Assembly: GCA_944378225.1 (NCBI GenBank)
Contig: CALWGE010000021.1
Coordinates: 1 to 41,831 of the forward strand
DNA length: 41,831 nucleotides
Direction: 5' to 3'
Origin: an uncultured Merdimonas sp.
GTDB taxonomy: Bacteria > Bacillota > Clostridia > Lachnospirales > Lachnospiraceae
Both the position numbers and the translations under genes were made by a program. Positions 7,977 through 27,387 of the stretch are shown here, in pieces. Each line of letters starts with the position of its first letter. Position 1 is the stretch's first letter. The notes under the pieces are model-generated. The model was not told the origin of the DNA, did not search any database, and saw only the letters and a list, made by a program, of their open reading frames with translations.

Positions 7977-8049
7977 AATAAAAATTCCTCCTGAAAGTGT
8001 TTAAAAAGTGAGACCTCCTAGTTATATAGAAGGTCTCAAGTGTGTCATC

Positions 8050-8250
8050 TTATCTTGAAGCGCGTTCTAAAAAGCTTTCAATTTTATGTCGATTCCAGAG
8101 AACCCGTTTTCCCACTTGAACCCTAGCTTCTGCTTGGGAGCCGATTTTGATAACGGTCGAATATCCGCAGCCAAGCAGAGACTGTAATTCCGGTGTGGTG
8201 AGAAGAAGTCGTTCTGGAATATCGGTGGAAGAAGCACGAGTCTTGTTCAT
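8050..8250 (-). CDS. xis: Excisionase-like winged helix-turn-helix protein
   Basis: A 66-residue DNA-binding protein of the small excisionase/MerR-like winged-helix type found next to Tn916-family integrases. The helix-turn-helix spans about LTTPELQSLLGCGYSTVIKI (residues 17-36), followed by a wing with VGKRVLWNRHKIESFLE (47-63), the normal ending of this family. It would bind near the element ends and bias the integrase toward excision. GGGAGGG precedes the ATG. It sits 73 bases upstream of int and 18 bases downstream of the ATPase gene, so all three are probably one transcript. Confidence 0.82.
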   Translation of the reverse strand: MNKTRASSTDIPERLLLTTPELQSLLGCGYSTVIKIGSQAEARVQVGKRVLWNRHKIESFLERASR

Positions 8251-8268
8251 AGTTTACCCTCCCCCCCG

Positions 8269-10242: not shown

Positions 10243-10328
10243 AGCTCTTTTGTTCCTCCTCAAATATAAAAATAGATACGCGCTGGCCAGCACATATCTA
10301 TTAAAACAAATTGGAAGAAAAATGTTAA

Positions 10329-11648
10329 TCAGTGGGAAATTTCCCACAGTGCGTAGGTAATAAAATATTGGATCTGTGTATATTGTTCAGTAGCCGTTTT
10401 AGTGATACGGCTGTTAGCTCTTTGTTCTGAAGACTTTTTTTTCTCTTCATTTTGAGACAATAAAATTTCTTTGATTGTTGTGTCGTCTGCTCCCATAAGA
10501 AAAGAATAGCTGCTTAAATGTTCCAGAAAATTAAATTTATCCATGGGAGTCATTTCGGCAGCAGGAGAAATGGGAATAATTTCCTTTTCCTGATCTATTC
10601 GTTTTTTTATCACAGATCTACAATGCAAATGATTTGGCAGCGTTGCGTTGTATGCATTTTGTTGAACAATATGAGTTAGAATATCATTTTTAGTATTATT
10701 TTTTAGAAGAGATTCATAGGCATTGTATAATAGAAAACCATAAAGTGCATTAAGGGAAGATATGAGGCTTTTTAGAGAGTTGTTTAATTTTGTAAGATAA
10801 GTCTCTATATTTTTATTGTTTTCATTGTTATGGTATTGAAGTACAATTTCCTTTAAAATACATTCTGCAAAATCATTTCTAATGAATGTGCATTTTAATG
10901 CACACAAAGAATAAACAATATTTTGTGTAAATGTATTCCAGTAATCATTGCTGCCTTTTAAATAAAAACAGCAAATCTCTGCAAGAGAACTTCCCAATAA
11001 TTTGTCTAATACAAGTTTATTTTCGATACCTGTATTACTGCTGTAGCGCAAACATTTTTTAAGAAATTCATGTTTCTGAAGTTCTTCAGGAGATAAAGAT
11101 TTTTTGGGGTTTTTTAATTGTAGATGTAATTTTTTCAAAAGTTTGTTGTATTCTAAATATTGTTCTTCTTGAAAACTGTCAAGCTTACCCATAAATTCAT
11201 CAATATTATAGAATGAATACTGATTAATTCTGGTTTTATCGCTTATACCTTTTAGAAAGTGCTGGTTCCATGACTTAGATGGAAACAGACATTTTAAATT
11301 TCTGCACCAATAAGTTTCTCTTTCGTTATTGTTTTCGATTTTACGATCAAATGGTAACCATGTATGATCTCTATAAATTAGCTCAAACTCTGAACAATAA
11401 GAACCTGCTAATAGAAAGAGGTCGGTATATAAATCATTTTGAAATAATTCACAAACATCCGGATACTTCATGGAGTATTTCGGAAGAATTTCTTTTATAT
11501 TATCTGCTATACAAAATTTATCTACTAAAGCTTTAATAAGAGCTGCTCCATCAGGAATATCATTGCCAAATATCTCATTGAGTTTTTGTCGGGCATTAAA
11601 ATCGTATCCAATAAATTTAAAAAAGCGCTTGTCGTTTACTTTTTCCAT
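10329..11648 (-). CDS. Unknown 439-residue element cargo protein
   Basis: I do not recognise this protein. It is a mostly helical, lysine- and asparagine-rich soluble protein coded by clearly AT-rich DNA, unlike the flanking chromosome. No Walker, HTH, nuclease, protease or membrane motif was found. Residues about 150-190 are a charged helical stretch and 290-330 look like a leucine-rich helical hairpin. Two adjacent ATG codons exist (11651 and 11648); AGGTGG at 11653-11658 is better spaced for the second. It precedes the ATPase by 86 bases on the same strand but has its own -10-like TATAAT (11684-11689). It occupies a cargo position in the element; an accessory role such as host interaction or anti-phage defence is possible but unsupported. 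Confidence 0.7.
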   Translation of the reverse strand: MEKVNDKRFFKFIGYDFNARQKLNEIFGNDIPDGAALIKALVDKFCIADNIKEILPKYSMKYPDVCELFQNDLYTDLFLLAGSYCSEFELIYRDHTWLPFDRKIENNNERETYWCRNLKCLFPSKSWNQHFLKGISDKTRINQYSFYNIDEFMGKLDSFQEEQYLEYNKLLKKLHLQLKNPKKSLSPEELQKHEFLKKCLRYSSNTGIENKLVLDKLLGSSLAEICCFYLKGSNDYWNTFTQNIVYSLCALKCTFIRNDFAECILKEIVLQYHNNENNKNIETYLTKLNNSLKSLISSLNALYGFLLYNAYESLLKNNTKNDILTHIVQQNAYNATLPNHLHCRSVIKKRIDQEKEIIPISPAAEMTPMDKFNFLEHLSSYSFLMGADDTTIKEILLSQNEEKKKSSEQRANSRITKTATEQYTQIQYFITYALWEISH

Positions 11649-11660
11649 CATTCCACCTCG

Positions 11661-11726
11661 TCCATCAAATTTTAGGTATGTTTATTATACTAAATGATAG
11701 CTAAGAATAACAGTGGATTTGATGGA
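11661..11726. promoter_or_regulatory. Inverted repeat flanking the promoter of the unknown cargo gene
   Basis: TCCATCAAAT (11661-11670) and its exact complement ATTTGATGGA (11717-11726) bracket a minus-strand -10 TATAAT (11684-11689). The left arm is in the leader just before the ribosome site. GGTGGA also recurs on both outer sides with a one-base shift. This may be a regulator site pair; no -35 box is convincing. Confidence 0.4.
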
Positions 11727-11739
11727 ATGGTGGATTTTC

Positions 11740-11856
11740 TTAAACGACAGCATTTTTACGACGCTTTTTCAAGACCTCGCGCTTCCAGATTGCTAATACA
11801 TTTCTAACAACAACACATACAATTTCTACTAATATTTTTTTGATATCATAATTCAT
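11740..11856 (-). CDS. Candidate small protein, 38 residues, hydrophobic helix plus basic tail
   Basis: A minus-strand frame reads from an ATG at 11854-11856 to a TAA at 11740-11742. The product has a polar start (MNYDIKK), a hydrophobic stretch (about residues 9-23, ILVEIVCVVVRNVLAI in part) and a strongly basic end (KREVLKKRRKN). This layout resembles small membrane peptides and type I toxins, but no antisense RNA was identified. The ribosome site is weak (AAAGGAT about eight bases upstream). It fills an otherwise empty 289-base gap between two element genes on the same strand. Evidence is limited to composition and position. Confidence 0.35.
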   Translation of the reverse strand: MNYDIKKILVEIVCVVVRNVLAIWKREVLKKRRKNAVV

Positions 11857-11902
11857 TTTTATCTATCCTTTCTACTAATATATTATATAGCTGATAAATA
11901 TG

Positions 11903-11935
11903 AAAAAAGCAGAAGCCATATAGACCTCTGCTTTT
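11903..11935 (-). terminator. Terminator of the HNH/repeat-protein operon
   Basis: On the minus strand AAAAGCAGAGG pairs imperfectly with GGCTTCTGCTTTT, ending in six T residues, about 10 bases after the stop of the 106-residue gene. Confidence 0.75.
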
Positions 11936-11945
11936 ATATAATTTT

Positions 11946-12266
11946 TTAATCTTCCTGTTTTCCGTATCCCCGTCTTTTTAATTCTTGTGCATATGCTATT
12001 TTGTCTGCTGTATTGTCGGTATCTCTCCATTTTTCGTATAATTCTTTGTCATTTAAATACTCAGCGGATTTTGCGGCATAAGCCGTTCTTCTTTTTAATT
12101 CCTCGGCGTAAGCCATTTTTTTGGCTATACTGTTTTCGCCTTTCATTTTTTCTAACAAACTATCGTCATCCAAGTTACCAGCTTGCCTTGAGGCAGATCC
12201 ATATTTTTCTTTCTGTTCTTTCAGAGCCTTTCCAGCTGCTTCGCCCAGCATATCCCAAAATCCCAT
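11946..12266 (-). CDS. Small repeat protein with MGFWD N-terminus, function unknown
   Basis: A 106-residue, highly charged soluble protein. It contains two copies of a helical unit spaced 39 residues apart: MAYAEELKRR at 51-60 and IAYAQELKRR at 90-99, each preceded by a similar acidic segment (from about 31 and 70). The first 15 residues (MGFWDMLGEAAGKAL) form a possible amphipathic helix that resembles the start of the HNH protein encoded just upstream (MGFFDSFSKAF). The ATG follows the HNH stop codon with no gap (TAAATG), so the two are almost certainly translationally coupled. Function unknown. Confidence 0.72.
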   Translation of the reverse strand: MGFWDMLGEAAGKALKEQKEKYGSASRQAGNLDDDSLLEKMKGENSIAKKMAYAEELKRRTAYAAKSAEYLNDKELYEKWRDTDNTADKIAYAQELKRRGYGKQED

Positions 12267-12668
12267 TTATTTTTTCCTCTTTTCTTTATTCTGTATTTTA
12301 CGTGCTTCCCTTAAAAACTTTAAATCTTCTTTATCCTGCGCTTTCAATTCCTTCTTGCGACGTTTTAAGTCTTGATTGGTTTCGGAAGTGTCGTCTTGTT
12401 TTGATCTGTTACAATGTTTGCATATACATTGTAGATTTTCACGTCGATTTGTACCACCTTTGCTTTTAGGGATAATATGGTCTATGTCCATATCACCTTT
12501 TCTAAAACTTTTTCCACATTTAATACATTTATACCAGCCATGATTTGAAGGAGTATTTTCAAAACATCTCTGCCTATAATAATTACCGTTTTCTTCATCG
12601 TCTTCGTTATACATATCAATAACGTCTCGATCATTAAATGCTTTTGAAAAACTGTCAAAAAATCCCAT
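12267..12668 (-). CDS. HNH-family nuclease with MGFFD N-terminus
   Basis: A 133-residue protein with a compact HNH (beta-beta-alpha-metal) domain. C48 and C51 pair with C83 and C86 to hold a structural zinc. D63-H64 in DIDHIIPKSKGG is the metal- and water-activating strand, N78 (REN) the central residue, and N87 ends the motif. The C-terminal 45 residues are a lysine/glutamate-rich helix, probably for nucleic-acid or partner binding. The N-terminal MGFFDSFSKAF resembles that of the next gene. It is the first gene of a two-gene operon driven by a promoter at 12716-12744. Small HNH proteins in elements can be homing, packaging or defence nucleases; the sequence does not say which. Confidence 0.8.
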   Translation of the reverse strand: MGFFDSFSKAFNDRDVIDMYNEDDEENGNYYRQRCFENTPSNHGWYKCIKCGKSFRKGDMDIDHIIPKSKGGTNRRENLQCICKHCNRSKQDDTSETNQDLKRRKKELKAQDKEDLKFLREARKIQNKEKRKK

Positions 12669-13206: not shown

Positions 13207-13214
13207 AATTGAAT

Positions 13215-13709
13215 ATGAAGACAAACAAGGTACTGTTTATGACACAGGCAGCCATGATTGCCGCTGTCTATGTGGTGCTGTGTGTGGTGTTCCAGCCTAT
13301 CAGCTATGGAGCCATTCAGACACGGATTGCGGAAGCTCTGACAATCCTGCCGTTTTTTACACCGGCTGCAATTCCGGGATTGTTTATTGGGTGTCTGATT
13401 GCAAACCTGCTTGGAGGAGGCATTCTTGCGGACGTTATCTGCGGAAGTGTTGCGACTTTGATTGGTGCAGCGGGAACATATATGCTGCGAAAGAAAAACA
13501 GGTTTCTTGCACCTCTGCCGCCGATCATTGCAAATGTGGTGATTGTACCCTGGGTACTGAAGTACGGCTATGGTGAACCGTTCAGCATTCCGTTCCTGAT
13601 GGGAACCGTGGGACTTGGCGAGATCCTGACCTGCGGAATTATGGGAATGATTCTTGTTGCTGTGCTGGATAAATACCGCAGCGTGATTTTCAAAACAGCG
13701 CAGAGCTGA
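13215..13709 (+). CDS. queT: QueT-family queuosine-precursor transporter
   Basis: A 164-residue membrane protein of the QueT (COG4708) family, the substrate-binding S component of an ECF transporter that imports a queuosine precursor such as preQ1. About five or six hydrophobic helices are visible. Typical features are ISYGAIQTRIAEALTILPFF (about 28-47) and GLFIGCLIANLLGGG (55-69). The ATG at 13215 lies eight bases after AAAGGAG; a TTG two codons earlier is too close to that site. It is a single gene with its own leader and terminator; the energising ECF module must be encoded elsewhere. Its original promoter appears to have been separated from it by the integrative element. Confidence 0.92.
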   Translation: MKTNKVLFMTQAAMIAAVYVVLCVVFQPISYGAIQTRIAEALTILPFFTPAAIPGLFIGCLIANLLGGGILADVICGSVATLIGAAGTYMLRKKNRFLAPLPPIIANVVIVPWVLKYGYGEPFSIPFLMGTVGLGEILTCGIMGMILVAVLDKYRSVIFKTAQS

Positions 13710-13881: not shown

Positions 13882-13941
13882 GAAAACATCCACTGTCCGG
13901 CTGACTGCTGGCAGAAATAAAAAGAAAATGAGGGTATGAGC

Positions 13942-15219
13942 ATGAAAACTACAAAGGAATTAAAAGAGCTTTTTGCGAGTGGGGCACAGGATGAACTACT
14001 GAAAGACATTTATATTGACGAGACATTGATGGATTACCAGAGACAGCGCTATGTAGATACACTCAGTCGTTATGAAGAATTATATGGCTGCCAGGAAGTG
14101 GAGATTTACAGTGCTCCCGGACGCAGCGAGATAGGGGGAAATCATACAGATCATCAGAATGGAGAAGTGCTTGCTGCCTCCATTAATCTGGACGCTATCG
14201 GAGTAGTGGGAAAACTGGACGGGGTTGTAAAGGTTGTATCCGGAACCGCGCCGGAAATCGTGATTTCTCTGGATGATCTGGACGTAAAAGAGAATGAGAA
14301 AGGAACGACAAAGTCCCTGATTAAGGGAGTGCTGGCAGGAATTCGCGAGCATGGAGGAAAAATCGGCGGTTTTCAGGCATATATCACCAGCGATGTGCTG
14401 ATTGGTGCAGGACTTTCTTCTTCCGCAGCCTTTGAAACGATTATCGGTACGATTGTGTCGGGCCTTTATAATGATATGAAGATTTCTCCTGTGGATATTG
14501 CCATTATCGGACAGTATGCAGAGAATGTATATTTTGGGAAGCCCTGTGGTCTGATGGACCAGACGGCCAGCTCTGTGGGAAATCTGGTGCACATTGATTT
14601 CGCAGATAAGAAGAATCCGAAAATTGAAAGCGTAGCCTGTGATCTGGAGAAATACGGATACAGCCTGTGCATTACGGATACAAAGGGGTCTCATGCTGAT
14701 CTGACAGATGATTATGCAGCGGTTCCTCAGGAAATGCGCGCAGCGGCTGCGGTATTTGGAAAAGAAGTTCTGCATGATGTGACGCTTGCTGATCTTCTTG
14801 AGAAATCTGCAGAAGTGCGTGAGAAAGCAGGAGACAGAGGATTTTTGAGAGCAATTCATTTTGTGACGGAGAATCCGAGGGTGCGGGAAGAAGTAGCAGC
14901 CCTGCGCGCGGGAGATTTTCAGGCATTTCTGCGCGCAGTAAAGGCTTCCGGAGACTCTTCATTTAAATATCTTCAGAATGTGTATACGAATCATGATGTA
15001 CAGCATCAGAATGTGTCAGTGGCATTGGCAGTCAGCGAAGCGATCCTTGGTGATAATGGCGTCTGCCGTGTACACGGAGGAGGTTTTGCCGGCACGATTC
15101 AGGCTTTTGTGAAACATGAAGCGGTGGAAGAGTACAGAAAGGTTATGGATCAGACTTTCGGAGAGGGATCCTGCAGTGTTCTTCAGATTCGTAAATATGG
15201 CGGAATGAAGGTGTTATAA
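13942..15219 (+). CDS. galK: Galactokinase
   Basis: A GHMP-family kinase of 425 residues that phosphorylates alpha-D-galactose to galactose-1-phosphate, the entry step of the Leloir pathway. GRSEIGGNHTDHQNG near 60-74 is the galactokinase signature (usually GRxNxxGEHxDY; here GGNH replaces GEH, a variant I believe is common in Clostridia). GAGLSSSAAFE near 155-165 is the ATP-binding GHMP motif, and VHGGGFAGT near 376-384 is the third motif. GAGGG at 13930-13934 is seven bases before this ATG; an ATG at 13936 is too close. galT follows 55 bases later and Mgl transporter genes follow that, so galactose is the confident substrate. Confidence 0.93.
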   Translation: MKTTKELKELFASGAQDELLKDIYIDETLMDYQRQRYVDTLSRYEELYGCQEVEIYSAPGRSEIGGNHTDHQNGEVLAASINLDAIGVVGKLDGVVKVVSGTAPEIVISLDDLDVKENEKGTTKSLIKGVLAGIREHGGKIGGFQAYITSDVLIGAGLSSSAAFETIIGTIVSGLYNDMKISPVDIAIIGQYAENVYFGKPCGLMDQTASSVGNLVHIDFADKKNPKIESVACDLEKYGYSLCITDTKGSHADLTDDYAAVPQEMRAAAAVFGKEVLHDVTLADLLEKSAEVREKAGDRGFLRAIHFVTENPRVREEVAALRAGDFQAFLRAVKASGDSSFKYLQNVYTNHDVQHQNVSVALAVSEAILGDNGVCRVHGGGFAGTIQAFVKHEAVEEYRKVMDQTFGEGSCSVLQIRKYGGMKVL

Positions 15220-15274: not shown

Positions 15275-16792
15275 GTGAAATCAATGAATAATAGCAGAAA
15301 TATCAGTGCTCTGATAGGGGAACTGGTTTCATATGGAATAGAAAATGGTCTGGCAGATTCTGCGGATGAGGTCTTCCTGACTAATCAGCTGCTCTCCCTT
15401 TTTGGACTGGATGAGTATGAAAAACCGGAGGTTCTGCCGGACGGGCGTCAGGTTCATGAGATACTGAATGACATGCTGGCCTATGCTGTGGAACAGAAAC
15501 TTCTGGAAGACGATACCGTTGCCACCAGAGATTTGTTTGATACCAAAATTATGGGCATTCTGACACCGCTTCCATCTCAGGTTCAGCTGAGGTTCTGGGA
15601 AAAATATCAGGTATCGCCCAAAGAAGCCACGGACGATTACTATGCGTTCAGCCAGGCAACGAACTATATTCGCCGGGACAGAATTGCCAAAGACGAAAAA
15701 TGGATAACAGATACAGAATACGGACCTATTGACATTACGATCAATCTTTCCAAGCCGGAGAAGGATCCGCGCGATATTGCGAAGGCGGGGAAGGCAAAGA
15801 AGAGCGGCTATCCCAGCTGCCTTCTGTGCAGAGAGAATGAAGGATATGCAGGTCATTATGATCATCCGGCCAGACAGAATCACAGAATTATTCCCATACG
15901 CCTGAACGGAGAAGAGTATTTTCTGCAGTATTCTCCTTACGTATATTATAATGAGCATTGCATCATATTTAATAAAGAGCATATTCCTATGAAGATTGAC
16001 AGGAATGCTTTTGCAAAGCTTCTTGATTTTGTTCGTCAGTTTCCACATTATACGGCGGGTTCCAATGCAGATCTTCCTATTGTGGGAGGCTCTATTCTGA
16101 GCCATGATCATTTTCAGGGAGGAAATTATGTATTTGCCATGGCCAGGGCTCCCTATGAAAGATATTTCACTATGTCGGCTTATCCGCAGGTGAAGGCCGG
16201 AGTAGTGCGGTGGCCGATGTCGGTGATCCGGCTTCAGGGGGAAAATCCGGTGCAGTTGGCTGACGCAGCAGATTATATTCTGAAAGCGTGGAGAGGATAT
16301 ACGGACGAGGCTGCTTTTATCTACAGTGAAACAGAGGGAGTTCCTCATAATACGATTACACCCATTGCACGAATGCGGGATGGCGTGTATGAACTGGATC
16401 TTGTTCTTCGCAATAACATTACCACGGAAGAACATCCGATGGGAGTTTACCATCCGCATGCACAGTATCATCATATTAAGAAGGAGAATATTGGTCTTAT
16501 TGAGGTGATGGGTCTGGCGGTGCTCCCGGCAAGACTGAAACAGGAGATGGCCCTGTTGGAAGAGTATATTCTGACGGGAAAAGATCTGCGAAGCAGTGAA
16601 ATTCTCGCAAAGCATGCAGACTGGGCAGAGGAGTGGATGGAGCACAGTTCTGTAACAGCAGAGAATCTTCACAGTATTGTACAGAAGGAAATCGGAAAAG
16701 TATTTGCCAAAGTTCTGGAATGTGCCGGCGTATATAAACGGACGGAAGAAGGACAGGCAGCTTTTGACAGATTTATTGATACACTCAGATAA
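15275..16792 (+). CDS. galT: UDP-glucose--hexose-1-phosphate uridylyltransferase, class II GalT
   Basis: A 505-residue cytoplasmic enzyme that swaps UMP between UDP-glucose and galactose-1-phosphate. It matches the Gram-positive class II GalT, much longer than the E. coli type. SHDHFQGGNY near 276-285 and HPHAQYHHIKKENIG near 392-406 supply the histidine motifs; CLLCRENEGYAGH near 184-196 is also typical. The GTG start at 15275 lies five bases after GGAAAG; an ATG three codons later is possible. It shares the galK direction with a 55-base gap and is closed by a terminator. galE, the epimerase that completes the pathway, is not in this window. Confidence 0.93.
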   Translation: MKSMNNSRNISALIGELVSYGIENGLADSADEVFLTNQLLSLFGLDEYEKPEVLPDGRQVHEILNDMLAYAVEQKLLEDDTVATRDLFDTKIMGILTPLPSQVQLRFWEKYQVSPKEATDDYYAFSQATNYIRRDRIAKDEKWITDTEYGPIDITINLSKPEKDPRDIAKAGKAKKSGYPSCLLCRENEGYAGHYDHPARQNHRIIPIRLNGEEYFLQYSPYVYYNEHCIIFNKEHIPMKIDRNAFAKLLDFVRQFPHYTAGSNADLPIVGGSILSHDHFQGGNYVFAMARAPYERYFTMSAYPQVKAGVVRWPMSVIRLQGENPVQLADAADYILKAWRGYTDEAAFIYSETEGVPHNTITPIARMRDGVYELDLVLRNNITTEEHPMGVYHPHAQYHHIKKENIGLIEVMGLAVLPARLKQEMALLEEYILTGKDLRSSEILAKHADWAEEWMEHSSVTAENLHSIVQKEIGKVFAKVLECAGVYKRTEEGQAAFDRFIDTLR

Positions 16793-17064: not shown

Positions 17065-18384
17065 ATGAAAAGGAAATTACTTTCACTGACACTGGCAGCA
17101 GTGCTGGCACTTTCCATGACCGCTTGCGGCGGCGGAAAAGATGCAGCTGATACATCCACGGATGCCGCAGCTACAGAAAGCACAGACGCAGCTGAGACTA
17201 CAGATACGGCAGCAGCCGGAGAAGTTGCCAACAAAGATAAGCCGCTTGTATGGTTTAACCGTCAGCCGTCCAACAGCTCCACAGGAGAACTGGACATGGC
17301 AGCACTGTCATTCAATGATAATACTTACTACGTAGGTTTCGACGCTAATCAGGGTGCTGAACTGCAGGGAACCATGATTAAAGATTATATCGAGGCAAAT
17401 ATTGACAGCATCGACCGCAATGGCGACGGCGTTATCGGATATGTTCTGGCTATCGGAGATATCGGACATAACGATTCCATCGCACGTACCAGAGGCGTTC
17501 GCGCAGCTCTGGGAACTGCTGTTGAGAAGGACGGAGCTATTGTAAGTGATCCGGTTGGAACCAACACAGACGGATCTGCTACAGCAGTACAGGACGGAAC
17601 TCTTGAGATCAACGGCAAGACCTATACAGTTCGTGAGCTGGCTTCTCAGGAAATGAAGAACTCCGCAGGAGCTACATGGGATGCAGCTACAGCAGGAAAC
17701 GCTATCGGAACCTGGTCCGCATCCTTCGGTGATCAGATCGATATCGTAGCTTCCAACAATGACGGTATGGGAATGTCCATGTTCAATGCATGGTCCAAGG
17801 ATAATAAGGTACCGACCTTCGGATACGATGCAAACAGCGATGCTGTAGCAGCTATTGCAGAGGGATACGGCGGAACCATCAGCCAGCATGCAGATGTACA
17901 GGCTTACCTGACTCTTCGTGTACTGCGTAACGCACTGGATGGTGTAGACATTGATACAGGTATCGGAACAGCTGACGAGGCTGGAAACGTACTGAGCAGC
18001 GATGTATTTACATACAATGCTGAGCAGCGTTCCTACTACGCACTGAACGTAGCTGTTACTGCTGAAAACTATCAGGATTTCACAGATTCCACAAAGGTTT
18101 ACGAGCCGGTATCCAACCAGCTGGATGCAGCAACACATCCGACCAAGAATATCTGGCTGAATATCTACAATGCAGCAGATAACTTCCTGAGCGCTACATA
18201 TCAGCCGCTGCTTCAGAATTACGATGATATTCTGAACCTGAATGTTGAGTACATCGGTGGAGATGGACAGACAGAGTCCAACATCACAAACCGTCTTGGA
18301 AATCCGAGCCAGTATGACGGATTTGCAATCAACATGGTTAAGACAGATAATGCAGCTTCCTATACATCTCTGCTTAGCCAGTAA
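17065..18384 (+). CDS. mglB: Galactose-binding lipoprotein of the Mgl transporter, apparently circularly permuted
   Basis: A 439-residue exported sugar-binding lipoprotein. Residues 1-21 are a lipoprotein signal (lipobox SMTAC, C21) and 22-58 an acidic Ala/Thr/Asp linker. The folded part is out of order relative to E. coli MglB. It starts at PLVWFNRQP (60-68), which matches the normal segment around Asn91 (VPVVFFNKEP). It then follows family order: YYVGFD (88-93), the calcium loop DRNGDGVIG (117-125), GHNDSIAR (134-141), W205, SNND (230-233), FGYD (252-255), and ENYQDF (334-339), the normal C-terminus. After a 23-residue linker comes IWLNIYNAADNFLS (363-376), equivalent to the normal mature N-terminus (IGVTIYKYDDNFMS), then an AINMVKTDNAA segment (421-431) equivalent to AINLVDPAAA. 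One expected contact, Asn256, is Gln274. AAGGAGG lies ten bases upstream of the ATG. See findings. Confidence 0.9.
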   Translation: MKRKLLSLTLAAVLALSMTACGGGKDAADTSTDAAATESTDAAETTDTAAAGEVANKDKPLVWFNRQPSNSSTGELDMAALSFNDNTYYVGFDANQGAELQGTMIKDYIEANIDSIDRNGDGVIGYVLAIGDIGHNDSIARTRGVRAALGTAVEKDGAIVSDPVGTNTDGSATAVQDGTLEINGKTYTVRELASQEMKNSAGATWDAATAGNAIGTWSASFGDQIDIVASNNDGMGMSMFNAWSKDNKVPTFGYDANSDAVAAIAEGYGGTISQHADVQAYLTLRVLRNALDGVDIDTGIGTADEAGNVLSSDVFTYNAEQRSYYALNVAVTAENYQDFTDSTKVYEPVSNQLDAATHPTKNIWLNIYNAADNFLSATYQPLLQNYDDILNLNVEYIGGDGQTESNITNRLGNPSQYDGFAINMVKTDNAASYTSLLSQ

Positions 18385-18577: not shown

Positions 18578-20086
18578 ATGGCAGATAAGAGGGATGACGT
18601 TGTCTTATCGATACGCGGAATGTGTAAGTCCTTTGGCCGTAACCGGGTTCTGGATCACATTAACCTGAATGTGAAGCGTGGAACGGTCATGGGACTGATG
18701 GGCGAGAACGGTGCCGGCAAGTCAACGATGATGAAATGTCTTTTTGGTACATATCAGAAAGATGAGGGAACTATTTTTCTCGATGGAAAGGAAGTAAGCT
18801 TTTCAGGACCGAAGGATGCCCTCGAAAACGGCATTGCGATGGTTCATCAGGAGCTGAACCAATGCCTGGAAAGAAACGTAATCGACAATCTGTTCCTTGG
18901 ACGCTATCCCAAGAATTCCATGGGAGTTGTGGATGAGGGCAGAATGAAAAAAGAAGCTTCCGAGCTTTTCAGAAGACTCGGCATGACTGTGAATCTGACA
19001 CAGCCGATGCGGAATATGTCCGTATCTCAGCGGCAGATGTGTGAGATTGCCAAGGCAATTTCCTATAACTCCAAGGTGATTGTTCTGGATGAGCCGACTT
19101 CTTCTCTGACAGTTCAGGAAGTTAACAAGCTGTTTGAGATGATGCGTATGCTGAAGGAACAGGGAATTGCTCTGATCTATATTTCTCATAAGATGGATGA
19201 GATATTTGAGATCTGCGATGAAATTTCTGTACTTCGGGACGGCAACCTGGTCATGACCAAAAATTCAAAAGATACGGATATGAATGAACTGATTTCCGCG
19301 ATGGTAGGACGTTCTCTTGAGAACCGGTTCCCGCCGGTAGACAATACCCCGGGAGATGTGATTCTGTCTGTTCAGCATCTGTCCACAAAGTTTGAACCCC
19401 ATTTACAGGATATCACGTTTGATGTCAGAGAAGGGGAAATTTTTGGACTGTACGGATTGGTAGGAGCAGGACGTACGGAACTGCTTGAAACAATTTTTGG
19501 CGTACGAACCAGAGCGGCGGGACGCGTGTACTTTAATAAACGGCTGATGAATTTTGGAAGCGCAAAGGAAGCCATGGAGCATGGGTTCGCCATGATTACA
19601 GAGGAGAGAAAGGCAAACGGACTCTTCCTGAAGGGAAATCTGACTTTCAATACTACGATTGCCAATCTGAATCAGTATAAATCAGGACCGGCTCTTTCTG
19701 ATGTGAAGATGACCAAGGCTACGGCGAAGGAAATTAAAGTCATGCATACCAAATGTATGGGACCGGATGATATGATTACAAGCCTTTCCGGCGGAAATCA
19801 GCAGAAGGTTATTTTCGGAAAATGGCTGGAACGCGAACCGCAGGTATTTATGATGGATGAACCGACACGTGGTATTGACGTCGGAGCCAAATATGAGATA
19901 TATGAGCTGATTATCCAGATGGCAAAAGAGGGAAAGACGATTATTGTAGTTTCCTCTGAGATGCCGGAGATTCTGGGAATTACGAATCGTATCGGCGTTA
20001 TGTCGAACGGACATCTTTCCGGAATTGTTAATACAAAAGAGACCAATCAGGAAGAGCTTTTGAGACTCAGTGCAAAATACCTATAA
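18578..20086 (+). CDS. mglA: Galactose ABC transporter ATPase, two fused ABC domains
   Basis: A 502-residue cytoplasmic ATPase of the MglA/RbsA type. Domain 1 has Walker A GENGAGKST (about 42-50), the signature-like region MSVSQRQMCEIAKA (147-160) and Walker B VIVLDEPTSSL (166-176). Domain 2 has the degenerate Walker A GLVGAGRTE (294-302), typical of this family, LSGGNQQK (402-409) and VFMMDEPTRGIDVG (424-437). The first domain is therefore expected to do most of the hydrolysis. AGGAG lies eight bases before the ATG. It lies between mglB and mglC, 18 bases before the permease, and energises galactose or methyl-galactoside uptake. Confidence 0.94.
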   Translation: MADKRDDVVLSIRGMCKSFGRNRVLDHINLNVKRGTVMGLMGENGAGKSTMMKCLFGTYQKDEGTIFLDGKEVSFSGPKDALENGIAMVHQELNQCLERNVIDNLFLGRYPKNSMGVVDEGRMKKEASELFRRLGMTVNLTQPMRNMSVSQRQMCEIAKAISYNSKVIVLDEPTSSLTVQEVNKLFEMMRMLKEQGIALIYISHKMDEIFEICDEISVLRDGNLVMTKNSKDTDMNELISAMVGRSLENRFPPVDNTPGDVILSVQHLSTKFEPHLQDITFDVREGEIFGLYGLVGAGRTELLETIFGVRTRAAGRVYFNKRLMNFGSAKEAMEHGFAMITEERKANGLFLKGNLTFNTTIANLNQYKSGPALSDVKMTKATAKEIKVMHTKCMGPDDMITSLSGGNQQKVIFGKWLEREPQVFMMDEPTRGIDVGAKYEIYELIIQMAKEGKTIIVVSSEMPEILGITNRIGVMSNGHLSGIVNTKETNQEELLRLSAKYL

Positions 20087-20104: not shown

Positions 20105-21760
20105 ATGGCAACAGAAAATGAAAAGATTCTTACAGCTGAGCGCGAGATGGAACTGCGCAGGCCGATTGACGAATATGTGGGCGGTATCCAGGAAAAAATT
20201 AACGCTCTTCGTGTAGACGGAACCGATAAGGTTGTCTCTGTTCAGAATAAAATTGATTCTCTGAAAAGAGACAAGAGCCGCAGCAAGGCCGAGAATGAAG
20301 CTGCTATTGCAAAGCTTCAGGGCGAACTGAAAAAGGCAAAAGAAGTAGAGGCAAAGAACAAGGATGCAATCGCAAAGCTGATTGCAGATGCGGAAGCCTA
20401 TCTGAAAGAACATTTTGACAAAGAATATTATCAGCCTGTAGCAGAAAGCGGAAAGTATGAAAAAGAGGCTGCAAAGAAAGCTTACCAGGCAAAGGTAGAA
20501 GAGCTTCAGAAAGAACATCAGGCTGCAGTTGCAAAACTTTCTGACCACAGAGAAATTAAGGATGAGAATTATGTTTACAAGAACCGGCTCTTTGATGCAA
20601 AAATGGAGCTGGACAAAAATCTGCAGGACATCAAGGACAGACGGCATGGAGCGTTTACACACAAGTATCATCTGATTGATATGCTGCGTATGTCCAGATT
20701 CACCTTTGCGGAAAATATGGCACAGAGATGGGAAAATTATCAGTATACCTTTAACCGCAGAAGCTTCCTTCTGCAGAACGGTTTGTATATTGCCATCATT
20801 TTGATTTTTATTGCCCTCTGTATCATTACTCCGATTATCAAGGGAACGCCTCTTCTTACTTATAATAATGTACTGAATATTCTTCAGCAGGCATCTCCGA
20901 GAATGTTCCTGGCGCTTGGTGTAGCGGGCCTGATCCTGCTTGCCGGTACAGACCTTTCCATTGGACGTATGGTAGGTATGGGTATGACAACGGCTACTAT
21001 CATCATGCATCAGGGTGTCAATACAGGAGGTGTGTTCGGTCATATCTTTGATTTCACAGGATGGTCGATTCCGGCGAGAATGATATTTGCCCTGGTGATG
21101 TGTATTGTTCTGTGTACCTGCTTTACATCCATTGCCGGATTCTTTACAGCGAAGTTCAAGATGCATCCTTTCATTTCCACAATGGCAAATATGCTGATGA
21201 TCTTCGGTTTAATTACATATGCCACAAAGGGTGTGTCCTTCGGTGCAATTGAGCCTTCTATTCCGGCTATGATTATTCCGAGAGTAAACGGATTCCCCAC
21301 CATTATTCTCTGGGCTGTGGCTGCAGTAGCCATTGTATGGTTTATCTGGAATAAGACAACTTTTGGAAAGAATCTGTATGCTGTAGGTGGAAACTCTGAG
21401 GCGGCAGCAGTGTCCGGTATTTCGGTATTTGCTGTAACAATTGGTGCTTTTATTCTGGCAGGTATTCTCTATGGTTTCGGATCCTGGCTGGAGTGTGCGA
21501 GAATGGTTGGTTCCGGTTCAGCTGCTTATGGACAGGGCTGGGAGACAGATGCGATTGCAGCCTGTGTAGTAGGTGGCGTATCCTTTACCGGTGGTATTGG
21601 TAAGATTTCAGGTGTAGTAGTCGGCGTGCTTATTTTCACGGCTCTTACATATTCTCTGACGATTCTTGGTATCGATACGAACCTGCAGTTTGTATTCTCC
21701 GGTATCATTATTCTGGTAGCGGTAACACTTGACTGTCTGAAATACGTTCAGAAGAAATAA
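20105..21760 (+). CDS. mglC: Galactose ABC transporter permease with a long coiled-coil N-terminus
   Basis: A 551-residue protein. Residues about 222-551 are a normal MglC/RbsC-type permease with eight or more membrane helices, including LALGVAGLILLAGTDLSIG (272-290) and YAVGGNSEAAAVSGI (about 426-440), the family motifs. E. coli MglC is about 336 residues, so the first ~220 residues are extra. They are hydrophilic and rich in Lys/Glu/Ala with heptad-like spacing (about 28-180), then a basic-aromatic segment (180-220) leads into helix 1. The start ATG has GGGAG upstream and the extension is in frame with no internal start of comparable quality. The extension should sit in the cytoplasm near MglA. 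Its role is unknown; a scaffold, stoichiometry or regulatory contact is possible. Confidence 0.9.
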   Translation: MATENEKILTAEREMELRRPIDEYVGGIQEKINALRVDGTDKVVSVQNKIDSLKRDKSRSKAENEAAIAKLQGELKKAKEVEAKNKDAIAKLIADAEAYLKEHFDKEYYQPVAESGKYEKEAAKKAYQAKVEELQKEHQAAVAKLSDHREIKDENYVYKNRLFDAKMELDKNLQDIKDRRHGAFTHKYHLIDMLRMSRFTFAENMAQRWENYQYTFNRRSFLLQNGLYIAIILIFIALCIITPIIKGTPLLTYNNVLNILQQASPRMFLALGVAGLILLAGTDLSIGRMVGMGMTTATIIMHQGVNTGGVFGHIFDFTGWSIPARMIFALVMCIVLCTCFTSIAGFFTAKFKMHPFISTMANMLMIFGLITYATKGVSFGAIEPSIPAMIIPRVNGFPTIILWAVAAVAIVWFIWNKTTFGKNLYAVGGNSEAAAVSGISVFAVTIGAFILAGILYGFGSWLECARMVGSGSAAYGQGWETDAIAACVVGGVSFTGGIGKISGVVVGVLIFTALTYSLTILGIDTNLQFVFSGIIILVAVTLDCLKYVQKK

Positions 21761-21872: not shown

Positions 21873-21917
21873 AATAACCAGTCTGAGCTAATCAATGACA
21901 TATAAATGGAGAGAAAA

Positions 21918-23528
21918 ATGGATATTTATACGGTATTGCTGGTGGATGATGAAGAAGAGGTTATTCAGGTCATTCAGAAAAAAATAAACTGGGAGGGGCT
22001 TGGCTTTTCCGTTATAGGGTATGCAAATAATGGGGTGAAAGCCCTGGAGATGGTAGAGGAGTTTCAGCCGGATGTAGTCATGACGGATATCCGGATGCCT
22101 TATATGGATGGAATGGAGCTGGCAAGGCGGATTCGAACAGAATTTCCCGCTACCAAGGTGCTGATTTTTACCGGTTTTGATGAGTTTGAGTATGCCAAGG
22201 AGGCAGTGCATCTTGAGGTGGAGGAATATATTCTGAAGCCGGTGAATTCTGTGGAGCTGACAAATGTTTTTACGTCTCTGAAAATCAAGCTTGATCAGGA
22301 AATCAGCGAAAAACGGAATAAAGAAGTTCTGAAAAAATATTATATGGAATCACTGCCTTTTCTCAAAACCAATTTTTATGTAACGCTGATAGAGGGGCGG
22401 ATCCGCAGGGAAGAGGTTGGTAAATATCTGAAAGACTATCAGATTGATCTGGAAGGACCGTATTATTGCTGTCTGGTTGTTCATACCTCATCTACACGCG
22501 TGGAGAAGAATATGGATCCGGTTCTTCTGGCGATGTCGGTTCAGAAACAGGCGGGGGAATATCTGGGAGAGAGGTGGAAACCAAAACGGTTTTCCTATCT
22601 GGGAAATCTGATTATGATAGCACGCCTTAATAATGAAAATGAAGTATCAGAGCTGACAGACGAATGCGATCGCTTCTGCCGTTATGCCCGGCGTATTATC
22701 GGAGCAGTGGTAACAGTAGGAGTCGGCTGGGTCTGTTCTGACATTCTGGACCTTTCTCAGTCCTATGCCAGTGCGAGAGAGGCGGTTTCTTACCGGGTAA
22801 TTTATGGAACGTCCAGGGCTATTAATATCAGGGAGATTGCACCGCAGGAGACGGGCGGGTCTGAGATGGTCAGCGATGCGGTAATCTCCAATCTGTTTCG
22901 CACAATTCGTCTCGATTCCAGAGAGGATATTATAGAAGAGGCAAATAATTATATGGATCATGTATTTCTGCCTGCAAAATCGCTTCAATATCATCATATT
23001 GCTGTGATGGAACTGGTAAGCGTCCTGTATCGCTTTGCGGTTAATAACGATATTCAGACAGAGGCTTTTTCCGGAGATATGGGGGAGCTGTACGGACGCC
23101 TGAGCGATATGGCTCCGGATGCATTGAGAAAATGGTTCGCAGACACCTGTCTGACATTTCAGGAGAGCCTGATCAGTACCAGAAATAAATCAACAAAGTC
23201 CTTTGTGCTGCGCGCACAGGAATATGTATGTGAAAACTATGCAGATGCCGACCTTTCGCTGGACAGCATCTGTGAAGTGCTGGGGGTGTCAAATTCTTAT
23301 TTTTCTACCATTTTCAAAAAGGAAACGGGAAATTCCTTTATCAGCTACCTGACGGATTATCGCATGGATCAGGCGGCAAGACGTCTGCTGGAGACCAGTG
23401 AAAAGAGCTATATTATAGCGAAAGAAGTGGGATATACAGATCCGAATTATTTCAGCTATGTGTTTAAACGACGATTTGGCGTATCGCCATCCAAATACAG
23501 AACGGAGCATGGAAAGAGTGAAAAGTAA
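21918..23528 (+). CDS. YesN-type response regulator (REC + AraC helix-turn-helix)
   Basis: A 536-residue transcription factor. Residues 1-120 are a receiver domain with acidic D10-D11, phospho-acceptor D57 (VVMTDIRMP) and K107 (ILKPVN). The middle 130-420 is the variable linker domain usual for YesN proteins. The last ~100 residues hold two AraC-type helix-turn-helix units (LSLDSICEVLGVSNSYFSTIF and the YIIAKEVGYTDPNYFSYVFK region, ending FGVSPSKYR). GGAGAG four bases upstream supports ATG 21918 over an upstream in-frame ATG at 21906. The stop overlaps the kinase start. The likely target is the mgl operon, whose promoter lacks a good -35 box, but this is inferred from position. Confidence 0.9.
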   Translation: MDIYTVLLVDDEEEVIQVIQKKINWEGLGFSVIGYANNGVKALEMVEEFQPDVVMTDIRMPYMDGMELARRIRTEFPATKVLIFTGFDEFEYAKEAVHLEVEEYILKPVNSVELTNVFTSLKIKLDQEISEKRNKEVLKKYYMESLPFLKTNFYVTLIEGRIRREEVGKYLKDYQIDLEGPYYCCLVVHTSSTRVEKNMDPVLLAMSVQKQAGEYLGERWKPKRFSYLGNLIMIARLNNENEVSELTDECDRFCRYARRIIGAVVTVGVGWVCSDILDLSQSYASAREAVSYRVIYGTSRAINIREIAPQETGGSEMVSDAVISNLFRTIRLDSREDIIEEANNYMDHVFLPAKSLQYHHIAVMELVSVLYRFAVNNDIQTEAFSGDMGELYGRLSDMAPDALRKWFADTCLTFQESLISTRNKSTKSFVLRAQEYVCENYADADLSLDSICEVLGVSNSYFSTIFKKETGNSFISYLTDYRMDQAARRLLETSEKSYIIAKEVGYTDPNYFSYVFKRRFGVSPSKYRTEHGKSEK

Positions 23529-25332
23529 AGGTTTGAAAGCATTAAGGATACCTGGACCGCTGGGCATTCAGTCCACAATTATGTTCAGCTTTTCCATGAT
23601 CTCTGTTTCAATTATGCTGATTATTGCGGTAGTGCTGTATCTGCGTTTTTCCACATCATCCAGACAGGAAACGATTCATAACACGCAGAGGCTGATGGAA
23701 CAGACCGGAGAGAGCCTGGAGGACTATCTGGTCAGTATGCGCCAGATTTCAGATACGGCGTATTATTATCTGATAAAAGAAAATGATTTTTCAGGTTATG
23801 CAGGAGATATCCAGAGCAGGATGAATCTGCTTTATGAGGCCAACCGGGACAGCCTTCAGAGTATCGCAGTCTATAACAGCTATGGGAGACTTCTGGCAGC
23901 CGAGCCCCTGGCGACCCAGAAAGAAAATCTGAATGTCACAGAACAGAATTGGTTTGTGCAGGCGATGGATGAGGTGGAAAATATGCATTTTTCCATGCCG
24001 CATATTCAGAATCTTTTTGATGACAATACATTTCGCTATTATTGGGTAATTTCTCTGAGCCGTGCCATAGAAATCACGAATGGAGGAAAGTCAGAACTGG
24101 GAGTGCTTCTGGTAGATATGGATTATTCTGTGATTTCAAGGATGCTGGATCAGATTAATACATCTGAAAATGGCCAGTATTACTATCTTTGCGACAGCAG
24201 CGGTGCAATTATTTATCATCCTCGCCGGATTCAGATTAGCGATAAAATCAGCAGTGAGAACAGCACCATGGCGGCTTCCTATAAAGATGGAATTTATGAT
24301 GAGGTTTTTGAGGGAGAAAGGCGCAAAGTGGTGATTAATACCATCAGCTACACAGGGTGGAAGCTGGTAGGAGTTATTCCCTATTCTGCATTTACGTATG
24401 GAATGGTGGATATGCGATATTTCATTATTCTTCTGGTTCTGCTGATGGCAATGATGCTGGCGGTGGTGAACCGGATTGCTTCTCAGGGAATTTCCAGACC
24501 TGTACTGCGCCTGAATGAGTCTGTCAGAGAATATGAAGCGGGAGAGAAGCCGGAGATTTATATCGGAGGGCCTCAGGAAATCCGGCATCTGGGACATTCC
24601 ATTCAAAAATCTTATGAGCAGATAGAAGATTTGATGAGAAAAATCGTGCTGGAGCAGAATGAAAGAAGAAAGAGCGAGCTGGATGCTCTTCAGAGTCAGA
24701 TTAATCCTCATTTTCTCTATAATACGCTGGAATCTATTACATGGATGGTAGAAGGGGAGAAGAATGATGAGGCAGTCTTCATGATTTCTCAGCTGGCAAG
24801 GCTTTTCCGGATCAGTCTCTCCAAAGGACGGACAATCATCAGAATCCGTGATGAAGTGCAGCATGCCCGAAGCTATATGAATATCCAGAAAATAAGGTAC
24901 AAGAATACATTTTCCATAGACTTTGAAATCGATCCTGCGATAGAAGATTACAGCACGGTTAAGCTGATTCTTCAGCCGCTGCTGGAAAACGCCATTAATT
25001 ACGGTGTAAGCGGTATGGACGATTGCGGTGAGATTCTGGTGAAAGGCAGGAGAGAAGGGAATGATATCCTGCTGACAGTGGAAGATAACGGGATAGGAAT
25101 GTCTGAGGAAGAGACCAGGCTGGTGCTCACAGACAGTGATCGTGTTCATAAGCATGGATCGGGAGTGGGGCTTGTGAATGTAAACCGTCGTATTCAGATT
25201 TACTTTGGAAGTGAGTACGGACTGTTTATTGAGAGCGAGCCGGACGAAGGCACAAAAGTGTTGATACGGATTCCGGCAGTTCCGTATACGGAGGAAGACA
25301 CGAAACGTCTGGAAGAGGGAAAAATAGAATGA
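23509..25332 (+). CDS. YesM-type sensor histidine kinase
   Basis: A membrane kinase of about 607 residues. Transmembrane segment 1 is near 17-40 and segment 2 near 301-325. Between them is an extracytoplasmic sensing region of ~260 residues that looks like a Cache domain. A HAMP-like linker follows. The H-box QINPHFLYNTLESI near 395-408 (His_kinase family PF06580), LLENAINYG near 490-498, and ATP-lid motifs EDNGIGM (~524) and GSGVGLVNVNRR (~550-561) complete the catalytic part. The start overlaps the regulator by 20 bases; a GTG at 23518 with GGAG ten bases upstream is an alternative. A sugar-binding partner is encoded next, overlapping by four bases. Confidence 0.9.
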   Translation: MERVKSKGLKALRIPGPLGIQSTIMFSFSMISVSIMLIIAVVLYLRFSTSSRQETIHNTQRLMEQTGESLEDYLVSMRQISDTAYYYLIKENDFSGYAGDIQSRMNLLYEANRDSLQSIAVYNSYGRLLAAEPLATQKENLNVTEQNWFVQAMDEVENMHFSMPHIQNLFDDNTFRYYWVISLSRAIEITNGGKSELGVLLVDMDYSVISRMLDQINTSENGQYYYLCDSSGAIIYHPRRIQISDKISSENSTMAASYKDGIYDEVFEGERRKVVINTISYTGWKLVGVIPYSAFTYGMVDMRYFIILLVLLMAMMLAVVNRIASQGISRPVLRLNESVREYEAGEKPEIYIGGPQEIRHLGHSIQKSYEQIEDLMRKIVLEQNERRKSELDALQSQINPHFLYNTLESITWMVEGEKNDEAVFMISQLARLFRISLSKGRTIIRIRDEVQHARSYMNIQKIRYKNTFSIDFEIDPAIEDYSTVKLILQPLLENAINYGVSGMDDCGEILVKGRREGNDILLTVEDNGIGMSEEETRLVLTDSDRVHKHGSGVGLVNVNRRIQIYFGSEYGLFIESEPDEGTKVLIRIPAVPYTEEDTKRLEEGKIE

Positions 25333-26303
25333 GCAGAAACGCAAAATATTATATTCTGATAGAAATTATTCTGGGTATCCTTGTGATTGTGTTTGCTGCT
25401 CTGATGCTGAGAGGGCAGGAGGACGATGCGTTGGGCAGAGTCTCCGTAATCGTCCGGGATTCTGATGACGCGCAGTGGTCGGCCTTTAAATATGGAATCC
25501 GGATGGCAGCCCAGGAGCGGGGAGTAGAGGCAGTTATTGTAGGTACAGAGAGCATACTGTCATTGAAGGAACAGCAGGAACTGATGAAAAGTGAGATAGC
25601 CAATGGAGCAGACGCCATTATCCTGCAGCCGGTTCCGGGAAAAGATGCCGGAGAAATTCTCGAAAAAACAGGAAAACAAGTGCCGATCCTGTTTGTAGGT
25701 ACAGGGCTTCCGGAGGAAGAGACAAAGGTGTCGGCTGCTGTTATCGAGGCGGATCCATATGCTCTGGGAGCAGCTCTGGCAGAGGAGCTTCTGGAAGATT
25801 ACCAGGGGAATCTGGAAGATAAGACACTGGGAGTGGTTTCTCTGACCACAGATTCTCAGATGACTGCCAGCCGAATGGAAGGCTTTCAGGAGGTTCTCAA
25901 AAATACAGGTGTGGATCTGCTCTGGTGTGTGTCAGGGAATTTTGAAGAGGGGGAAACAGAATATCTGGGAGCTCAGCCAGAGGTGGATTTTATAGCAGCT
26001 CTTGATGACAGCAGTCTGACAGCTGTCGGGGAATATGCGGATTCTAACGGATTAAACGGAGCAGTACTTTATGGAATCGGCCATTCTACTCAGGCTGCCT
26101 ATTATCTGGATAAGGGAATTGTGGAATGTCTTGTGGTGCCGGATGAATTCAGCATGGGATATCAGAGTATGAGTGAGGCTGCCGACTGCCTGGAACACTG
26201 GTTTTATAAGCCTCAGGGCAGAGATGTTCCATATTCTGTCCTGCGCAGAGAGACATTGTTTTCACAGAAGGGGCAGGAAATCCTGTTTACAATGAGTCAG
26301 TAG
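25329..26303 (+). CDS. Membrane-anchored periplasmic-type sugar-binding protein, probable sensor partner
   Basis: A 324-residue protein with an N-terminal membrane anchor (about 8-27) without a lipobox cysteine, followed by a type I periplasmic-binding fold of the ribose/galactose/LacI class (VSVIVRDSDDAQWSAF at about 38-53, ADAIILQP near 92-99). The ATG overlaps the kinase stop (ATGA), a sign of tight coupling. No permease or ATPase gene accompanies it. Such kinase-linked binding proteins are known to present sugar to the sensor domain of a YesM-type kinase, so a sensory rather than transport role is inferred. The ligand is probably galactose or a related sugar by locus context. Confidence 0.8.
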   Translation: MSRNAKYYILIEIILGILVIVFAALMLRGQEDDALGRVSVIVRDSDDAQWSAFKYGIRMAAQERGVEAVIVGTESILSLKEQQELMKSEIANGADAIILQPVPGKDAGEILEKTGKQVPILFVGTGLPEEETKVSAAVIEADPYALGAALAEELLEDYQGNLEDKTLGVVSLTTDSQMTASRMEGFQEVLKNTGVDLLWCVSGNFEEGETEYLGAQPEVDFIAALDDSSLTAVGEYADSNGLNGAVLYGIGHSTQAAYYLDKGIVECLVVPDEFSMGYQSMSEAADCLEHWFYKPQGRDVPYSVLRRETLFSQKGQEILFTMSQ

Positions 26304-26340: not shown

Positions 26341-27387
26341 ATGAGTACAAAAAGAGCATGGATATGGACGGTTGCTGTTCTGGCAGCCGCTTGCAGTCTG
26401 ACTTTATGCGGCTGTAAAAAAAAGCAGACAGAGGATACAGGAAAAAACTATATTGGCGTGGCGTACTATAATCAGAGCGACACATTTTTAAATGAACTTC
26501 TGGATTGTTTCAGAAGTCAGCTGAAAGATATCCAGGGAGGAGATACGGAGACGGTAGTTATGGTCCGGGATGCTGCGGGCTCTCAGAGAACCCAGGACGA
26601 TCAGGTGAAAGAGCTTATTGATGCAGGCTGCGATGTGCTCTGCGTGAATCTGGTAGATCGGGCGGATCCCTCCGAGATCATAGATTTGGCCAGAGAAAAT
26701 GAAGTACCTATTATTTTCTTTAACAGAGAACCGGTGGCAGAAGATCTGATGCAGTGGGACGGACTTTATTATGTGGGAGCGGATGCGGAGCAGTCTGGTT
26801 ATATGCAGGGAGAACTGGCGGCGGATATGATACAGTCAAACAGTCAGGCTGACGGCAATCGGGACGGAAAAATTCAGTATGTGGTCCTGGAAGGAGAAGT
26901 AGGGCATCAGGATGCTATTATACGCACAGAAGCAGTAGTGGAAGCCCTGGCAGACAGAGAAATTGAGCTGGAAAAACTGAGCTATCAGATTGCCAACTGG
27001 AATCGGGCTCAGGCAGAGAATCGAATGGAACAGCTGATTGGACAGTATGGGAATCAGATAGAGCTGATTCTGGCCAATAATGATGATATGGCATTGGGAG
27101 CATTGGATGCATATGAAAAACTGAATTATACAGAAGCTGCTGTTCCGGCTATTTTCGGAATCGACGGGACGGAAGCCGGTCTTAAGGCTGTTGTGAATGC
27201 AAGACTTGCCGGAACCGTATATAACGATAAAGAGGGACAGGCCAGAGCAATGGCGCAGATAGCGATGGCGCTGCTGACAGGCAAGGGCATGGAAGAAGTA
27301 GAGTTTGAGAGTGAGCGCTGTGTCTACCTGCCTTACCAGAAGATTACAGCAGAAAATGCAGAAGATTTTTTGTATCAAAATCAGTAA
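26341..27387 (+). CDS. Galactose-binding lipoprotein, canonical order
   Basis: A 348-residue MglB-family lipoprotein (lipobox LCGC, C25). The segment order is the normal one: YNQSDTFL (43-50, equivalent to the Asp14/Phe16 region), FFNREP, the calcium-loop-like GNRDGKIQ, VGHQDAIIRTE, a tryptophan in ANWNRAQA, LANNDDM, FGIDGTE and AGTVYND. All expected galactose contacts are present, including the asparagine that is glutamine in the permuted protein at 17065. It lies 37 bases after the sensor-linked binding protein and has no transporter genes of its own. It may feed MglA-MglC or act in sensing. No terminator was seen between it and the next gene's promoter. Confidence 0.88.
   Translation: MSTKRAWIWTVAVLAAACSLTLCGCKKKQTEDTGKNYIGVAYYNQSDTFLNELLDCFRSQLKDIQGGDTETVVMVRDAAGSQRTQDDQVKELIDAGCDVLCVNLVDRADPSEIIDLARENEVPIIFFNREPVAEDLMQWDGLYYVGADAEQSGYMQGELAADMIQSNSQADGNRDGKIQYVVLEGEVGHQDAIIRTEAVVEALADREIELEKLSYQIANWNRAQAENRMEQLIGQYGNQIELILANNDDMALGALDAYEKLNYTEAAVPAIFGIDGTEAGLKAVVNARLAGTVYNDKEGQARAMAQIAMALLTGKGMEEVEFESERCVYLPYQKITAENAEDFLYQNQ

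Follow-up and report, generated by a model that had tools for sequence, protein, structure and literature searches.

The circularly permuted MglB of Treponema pallidum, TpMglB-2, was solved by Brautigam et al. in 2016 (PDB 5jx2), and its circular permutation was described in the same paper (PMC4990184). The available text of that paper proposes the name Type Ic/Cluster Bc for the permuted class, and places the permuted topology in many Gram-positive bacteria, many of which are gut commensals. It gives a table of ten sugar-contacting residues in which Gln in place of Asn256 is already included, and also treats the fourth hinge and the changed tether point of TpMglB-2. In addition, it reports that the moved piece is 13% identical to the MglB N-terminus, and considers origin from another gene to be a possibility.

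The second described system of relevance is CuaD-CuaS-CuaR of Ruminiclostridium cellulolyticum (PMC10384115), in which a second lipoprotein solute-binding protein stands beside a two-component pair comprising a 627-aa kinase and a 538-aa regulator of the YesN/AraC type. According to the available text, this second lipoprotein contacts the kinase whereas the transport protein does not, and the system controls a transport operon that has its own binding protein. CuaD-CuaS-CuaR is a cellobiose system, in which CuaD binds more tightly than CuaA, and that text mentions no permutation.

The window analyzed here is the whole stretch of 41,831 nucleotides from an uncultured Merdimonas sp., and in it galK, galT, a permuted mglB, mglA, and mglC lie in one run, with a regulator, a kinase, and two further binding proteins downstream. 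The gene at 17065-18384 very likely (at roughly 90%) encodes a lipoprotein of the TpMglB-2 class that binds galactose/glucose for an Mgl ABC importer. The protein belongs to that published class, and the permutation itself is no discovery. The features of the locus are as follows.

13936..15219, plus strand: galK, galactokinase (PF10509, PF00288)
15275..16792, plus strand: galT, galactose-1-phosphate uridylyltransferase (PF01087, PF02744)
17065..18384, plus strand: permuted mglB, 439 aa, intact open reading frame
17065..17235, plus strand: signal peptide with Cys21 and low-complexity tether of the permuted MglB, aa 1-57 (hydropathy, Cys column)
17236..18081, plus strand: core of the permuted MglB in normal order, aa 58-339, equivalent of MglB residue ~85 through the C-terminus (hhalign)
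18082..18150, plus strand: linker of 23 residues, aa 340-362, from the old C-terminus to the old N-terminus
18151..18381, plus strand: moved segment, aa 363-439, corresponding to the MglB N-terminus (profile tests; PF18610 at 360-430)
18578..20086, plus strand: mglA, two ABC ATPase domains, 502 aa (PF00005 twice; NF008215 at 664.8 bits, below the cut-off of 828)
20105..21760, plus strand: mglC permease, 551 aa (NF007014 at 219-551; PF02653 at 256-539)
20105..20758, plus strand: N-terminal extension of MglC, about 210 aa (no Pfam domain)
21906..23528, plus strand: AraC-type response regulator, 540 aa, which we take to be YesN-like from its domain layout (PF00072, PF12833)
23458..25332, plus strand: YesM-like sensor histidine kinase with dCache outer domain, start codon uncertain (PF06580, PF02743, PF02518)
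25329..26303, plus strand: RbsB/TorT-like binding protein, 324 aa (PF13407; TorT model E=3.6e-9, below cut-off)
26341..27387, plus strand: ordinary-order MglB lipoprotein, 348 aa (8fxu, E=3.6e-67 over 38-342)

The best PDB sequence match of the permuted MglB is 5jx2 (TpMglB-2, Tp0684), which covers residues 56-437 in one stretch (E=2.2e-90), and ordinary MglB structures align to it in two partial stretches. The Pfam domains are PF13407 at 84-293 and PF18610 (Peripla_BP_7) at 360-430, the latter with 138.6 bits against a curated cut-off of 36.8, whereas the canonical MglB model NF011924 gives 91 bits against a cut-off of 420, again in two stretches. The permutation of the MglB order claimed in the original prediction is thus borne out by the end-to-end match to 5jx2, and by a rotated family profile that aligns better than the normal order. 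The linker after ENYQDF has the predicted 23 residues, because this motif begins at 334 and IWLNIY at 363. The ten sugar-contacting residues were also numbered correctly (N65, H135, D137, R141, W205, N232, D255, Q274, D372, and F374), and they are kept on either side of the cut. The lipid anchor is attached at a different place than in ordinary MglB, and the TpMglB-2 paper discusses the same change of tether in its available text. The permutation and the intact gene of the original prediction therefore stand, but its claim of novelty was wrong because PMC4990184, as far as its available text goes, describes the permutation, the residues, the tether, and the gut clade; TpMglB-2 has been in print since 2016. 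No papers on Peripla_BP_7 were found in open-licence PMC text, and no permuted solute-binding proteins in Lachnospiraceae were among the matches listed from open-licence PMC titles and abstract starts.

TpMglB-2 (PDB 5jx2, 6bgc, and 6bgd; PF18610) shares its permuted order with the window protein from end to end, at about 41% identity, and its fold is the top match of the window protein's model. Both proteins have Gln at the Asn256 position, a linker at the same place, and a lipid tether, and the calcium-site pattern of TpMglB-2 (D, N, D, hydrophobic, G ... D) is also present in the window protein. By sequence alignment the 23-residue linker corresponds to the fourth hinge or connection of TpMglB-2 and is about 5 residues longer, while the structure model is too inaccurate to place it. 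In contrast, the Asp14 position is occupied by Asp in the window protein and by Asn in TpMglB-2, and the window protein differs in its galK/galT context and in coming from a member of the Gram-positive clade. For TpMglB-2 glucose is the preferred ligand, ahead of galactose, whereas a galactose or glucose ligand of the window protein is suggested by analogy. E. coli MglB, like 8fxu, 5kws, and 1gca, shares the two-lobed family with the permuted MglB, and nine of the ten sugar-binding residues are identical between the two. However, the chain order differs, and the permuted protein has an extra linker.

PF18610 occurs in 21 of 200 genomes of a same-family sample and in 2 of 299 of a phylum sample, with the window's genome counted in both, and in none of 14 control genomes; the window's own genome holds one copy. 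With regard to the spread of the permuted order, a point raised in the original prediction, a search of the named collection found 412 relatives, of which the best 80 were kept, and these 80 are mostly labelled Lachnospiraceae or genera that we take to be allied to this family. The window protein, the 80 named loci, and 20 further loci give 101 permuted rows, 96 of them distinct because five of the 20 repeat the DNA of named loci. These repeats include Diplocloster agilis and a Lachnospiraceae bacterium, which makes Lachnospiraceae the very probable family of the window. No variation occurs among the 101 rows at any of the ten positions that contact the sugar: Gln consistently replaces Asn256, and Asp14 is matched by Asp, the E. 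coli residue. The same holds, again in 101 of 101, for the five residues that correspond to the calcium site of TpMglB-2 (D117, N119, D121, G125, and D226). The window protein has a hydrophobic segment at 4-24 with Cys21 (hydropathy), and Cys occupies this lipid-anchor column in 95 of the 101 rows; a strict lipobox pattern is present within the first 40 aa in 54 of them, a count made on uncurated start codons.

The open frame and the conservation among relatives indicate a natural and intact permuted MglB that is very probably functional, as had been proposed from the sequence. A broken or misassembled gene without its first lobe would account for an order unlike that of E. coli MglB, which is the sole point that speaks for it. 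This explanation is so improbable as to be negligible, given that the frame is intact, the 80 named loci are 78-90% identical to the window protein over almost its full length (in L080 the match begins at residue 54), the ten sugar positions are invariant, and the order is conserved in independent genomes.

The structure model agrees with this picture at the level of fold. A single-sequence AlphaFold model was a failed fold (pLDDT 34.1), and a 77-sequence model, whose alignment took 76 of the 80 named loci (L002, L004, L010, and L080 omitted), reached only moderate confidence (pLDDT 62.6, pTM 0.58). The top Foldseek hits of the latter are the four TpMglB-2 chains, with E between 4.2e-28 and 6.2e-27, TM 0.69-0.74, and rmsd 5.3-5.5 (5.4 to 5jx2) over about 390 columns, whereas ordinary MglBs reach a query-normalised TM of 0.38-0.40 over about 290 columns. 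The model is too inaccurate to stand alone.

The doubt that the 2016 paper leaves over the source of the moved segment can be addressed with profiles. The 101 permuted rows were compared with 53 ordinary MglBs, namely 16 from the transport position beside mglA, 36 from the sensor position beside the kinase, and E. coli MglB; two ordinary MglBs (in L146 and L154), assigned to neither position, were left out. In this comparison, limited by the shallow permuted profile (Neff ~1.4), the last 95 residues of the permuted MglB match the MglB N-terminus profile with a probability of 85.6 (P=5.5e-6, 21% identity). The corresponding probability is 0.2 and 0.1 with two other MglB pieces, and 0.6 when the N-terminus is that of the RbsB-like neighbours. 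The N-termini of the RbsB-like family and of MglB match each other at 96.3. Moreover, an MglB-family profile in normal order stops at residue 341 of the permuted MglB (hhalign, 222 columns, score 203.5), whereas this profile reaches residue 431 once its first 84 columns have been placed last (293 columns, score 225.5). Forty controls in which the columns of the moved segment were shuffled have a mean score of 202.2 and a maximum of 207.0, all below that of the rotated profile. Residues 360-439 thus do match the N-terminal segment of MglB, the point on which the original prediction could have failed.

The alternative raised in the 2016 paper is that the last ~80 residues come from a different binding-protein gene, and resemble the MglB N-terminus by convergence. 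The low identity fits such an origin, both the 13% given in the available text of PMC4990184 and the 21% of the profile alignment, as does the lack of a significant hit to E. coli MglB when the moved segment alone is searched by single-sequence BLAST (E=0.56, 34% across 32 residues). Borrowing is nevertheless improbable in view of the far better match to the MglB N-terminus than to the other MglB pieces or the RbsB-like N-terminus, and the equivalents of D14 and F16 are invariant in the permuted rows. On the profile evidence, shared ancestry with the MglB N-terminus is a better explanation of the moved segment than borrowing from another gene.

The two mglB genes of the window share a strand, are separated by 8 kb, and have their binding residues in common, which could suggest that the permuted gene is a recent duplicate of the ordinary mglB at 26341-27387 that was then trimmed. 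However, the core of the permuted protein is 26.5% identical to this neighbour (324 columns), which does not exceed its identity to E. coli MglB (30.3%, 264 columns). In a tree of the unmoved core, the permuted proteins form one group with a support of 100 and a stem of 2.56, and all 36 sensors lie apart from it in another group with a support of 99. A recent local duplication is contradicted by this tree and is highly improbable.

With regard to the transport cassette, the permuted MglB chain would start within the N-lobe, run through the C-lobe to the usual C-terminus, return via the linker, and end with the normally first segment. By analogy with the T. pallidum protein, and from the gene context, which together suggest its ligand, transport, and expression, the protein would shut around a hexose in the manner of a Venus flytrap and pass it to MglC/MglA, and galactose inside the cell would be handled by GalK and GalT. 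Against a galactose role counts that galK or galT lies within the 4 kb flanks of only 7 of the 80 named loci.

The MglC of the window is unusual in its charged, probably helical N-terminal extension, which has 42 K/R, 41 D/E, and only 8 G/P in 215 residues. It is less conserved than the membrane part, with a mean identity to the window of 58% versus 85%. It has no Pfam domain and no significant solved relative (best E=0.065), and no report of such an extension was found in open-licence PMC titles and abstract starts. In all 21 permuted loci, the window included, MglC is 549-568 aa long, and 253-272 of these residues precede a shared membrane position; the same position is preceded by 39-111 residues in 18 MglCs from non-permuted loci (18 of the 20 such loci had an MglC that passed the filter of >30% identity and 250-599 aa) and by 41 in E. 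coli. Among the named loci, 5 of 80 have no MglC in the stretch, and 71 of the 75 MglCs are 548-563 aa long. The four exceptions are cut by a contig end (L010 and L021), in two pieces (L070), or short (L015). The link of the permuted MglB with a long MglC is a lead, and counts as one evolutionary observation because the 21 loci are one lineage. Genes split over two frames, namely a regulator (L143), a kinase (L167), and an MglC (L070), as well as the short MglC of L015, may be assembly errors.

The original prediction passes over the second, ordinary-order MglB of the same locus, at 26341-27387. Ordinary MglB structures cover its whole mature length, it keeps all ten sugar residues, and it lies 8 kb downstream of the permuted mglB. 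It adjoins the kinase, which has two hydrophobic segments (hydropathy), and the regulator both in the window and in 15 of the 20 permuted loci fetched. An extra binding protein beside a kinase and an AraC-type regulator, the arrangement of CuaD-CuaS-CuaR, is therefore found in this downstream module as well. It is fairly likely that the ordinary-order MglB senses sugar for the neighbouring two-component system, which would control the locus, and that it takes no part in transport. By analogy with CuaD-CuaS-CuaR, the ordinary MglB, perhaps together with the anchored RbsB-like protein, would report sugar to the kinase, which via the regulator would switch on the locus. The available text of PMC10384115 mentions no counterpart of the extra anchored RbsB-like protein. 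Against the sensor idea counts that 5 of the 20 permuted loci have no ordinary MglB in the stretch, one of them being cut by a contig end. Open-licence PMC text yielded no papers on MglB together with YesN, and no galactose three-component system was among the matches listed from open-licence PMC titles and abstract starts.

The RbsB/TorT-like protein has a hydrophobic anchor at its N-terminus (hydropathy) and lacks Cys within the first 60 aa. It might itself be the sensor, in which case the ordinary MglB would serve the same MglA/MglC as an additional binding protein for transport. Its gene directly follows that of the kinase, it has a weak match (E=3.6e-9) to TorT, which NCBI names as part of a sensor system, and two loci (L148 and L151) carry an RbsB-like protein without an ordinary MglB. 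This assignment is possible but rather doubtful: ordinary MglBs in the sensor position group together (support 99), apart from those in the transport position, remain beside the kinase when the type of transport cassette switches, and by their branch lengths change more quickly than the permuted transport protein. These points argue for the ordinary MglB as the sensor.

The locus comparison took in the permuted loci of the PF18610 genomes (22 distinct genomes, of which G299, 74% complete, was not fetched), together with 20 comparison loci picked for holding a relative of the window's ordinary MglB. In 13 of the 20 permuted loci the sensor set of regulator, kinase, RbsB-like protein, and ordinary MglB follows downstream, which is the window's arrangement, and two have this set upstream, one of these being visible only from the kinase onward. 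Another two carry a diverged regulator, kinase, and RbsB-like protein but lack an ordinary MglB, and three have no sensor set, one of them cut by a contig end. On the other side, in 16 of the 20 comparison loci the transport position beside mglA is taken by an additional ordinary MglB (the stretch of L166 ends before mglC), and 11 of these 16 show exactly the gene order of the window; the other four lack a recognised transport binding protein.

In the compared loci, the permuted MglB is accompanied by its own MglA lineage and by an MglC with the ~210-residue extension. MglA is 80-93% identical to that of the window in permuted loci versus 36-53% in the others, and the MglAs of permuted loci form one group (support 100). 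On the sensor tree, with the four loci lacking a recognised transport binding protein unscored, association with the permuted transporter needs 3 changes, of which well-supported branches force at least 2; bootstraps range from 2 to 3 changes, and none of 200 trees (0%) needs one. Two kinds of transport cassette have therefore probably been exchanged beside the sensor cassette. Since MglA and MglC change together with MglB, the data point to exchange of whole cassettes, and permutation of the transport gene in situ, inside a shared locus, does not fit the same concerted change.

A speculative extension, unlikely to hold in full, is that the two chain orders do two jobs. The permuted MglB would only feed the importer through its own long-N-terminus MglC, the ordinary MglB would only signal to the kinase, the changed order and tether would help to prevent cross-docking, and the cassette of permuted MglB, MglA, and long MglC would move as a unit between sensor-equipped loci. 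The window adds a natural side-by-side pair of a permuted and an ordinary MglB in one galactose locus, which makes the question of 2016, what use, if any, the permuted order has, easier to test.

An Rfam search of the window found no family at gathering score, riboswitches included, and no tRNA. Upstream of galK, 13209-13709 encodes a QueT queuosine-precursor transporter (PF06177), and the minus strand at 6867-12668 carries a probable integrated mobile element with a phage-type integrase, a DUF927 protein, and an HNH endonuclease. Downstream of the ordinary mglB, 28268-32825 holds genes of a pyruvate-dehydrogenase-type complex, which would be unusual for a strict anaerobe. Its E2 has three lipoyl domains (670 aa), the alpha and beta parts of its E1 are fused in one 826-aa chain, and a lipoate-protein ligase follows at 32944-33981.
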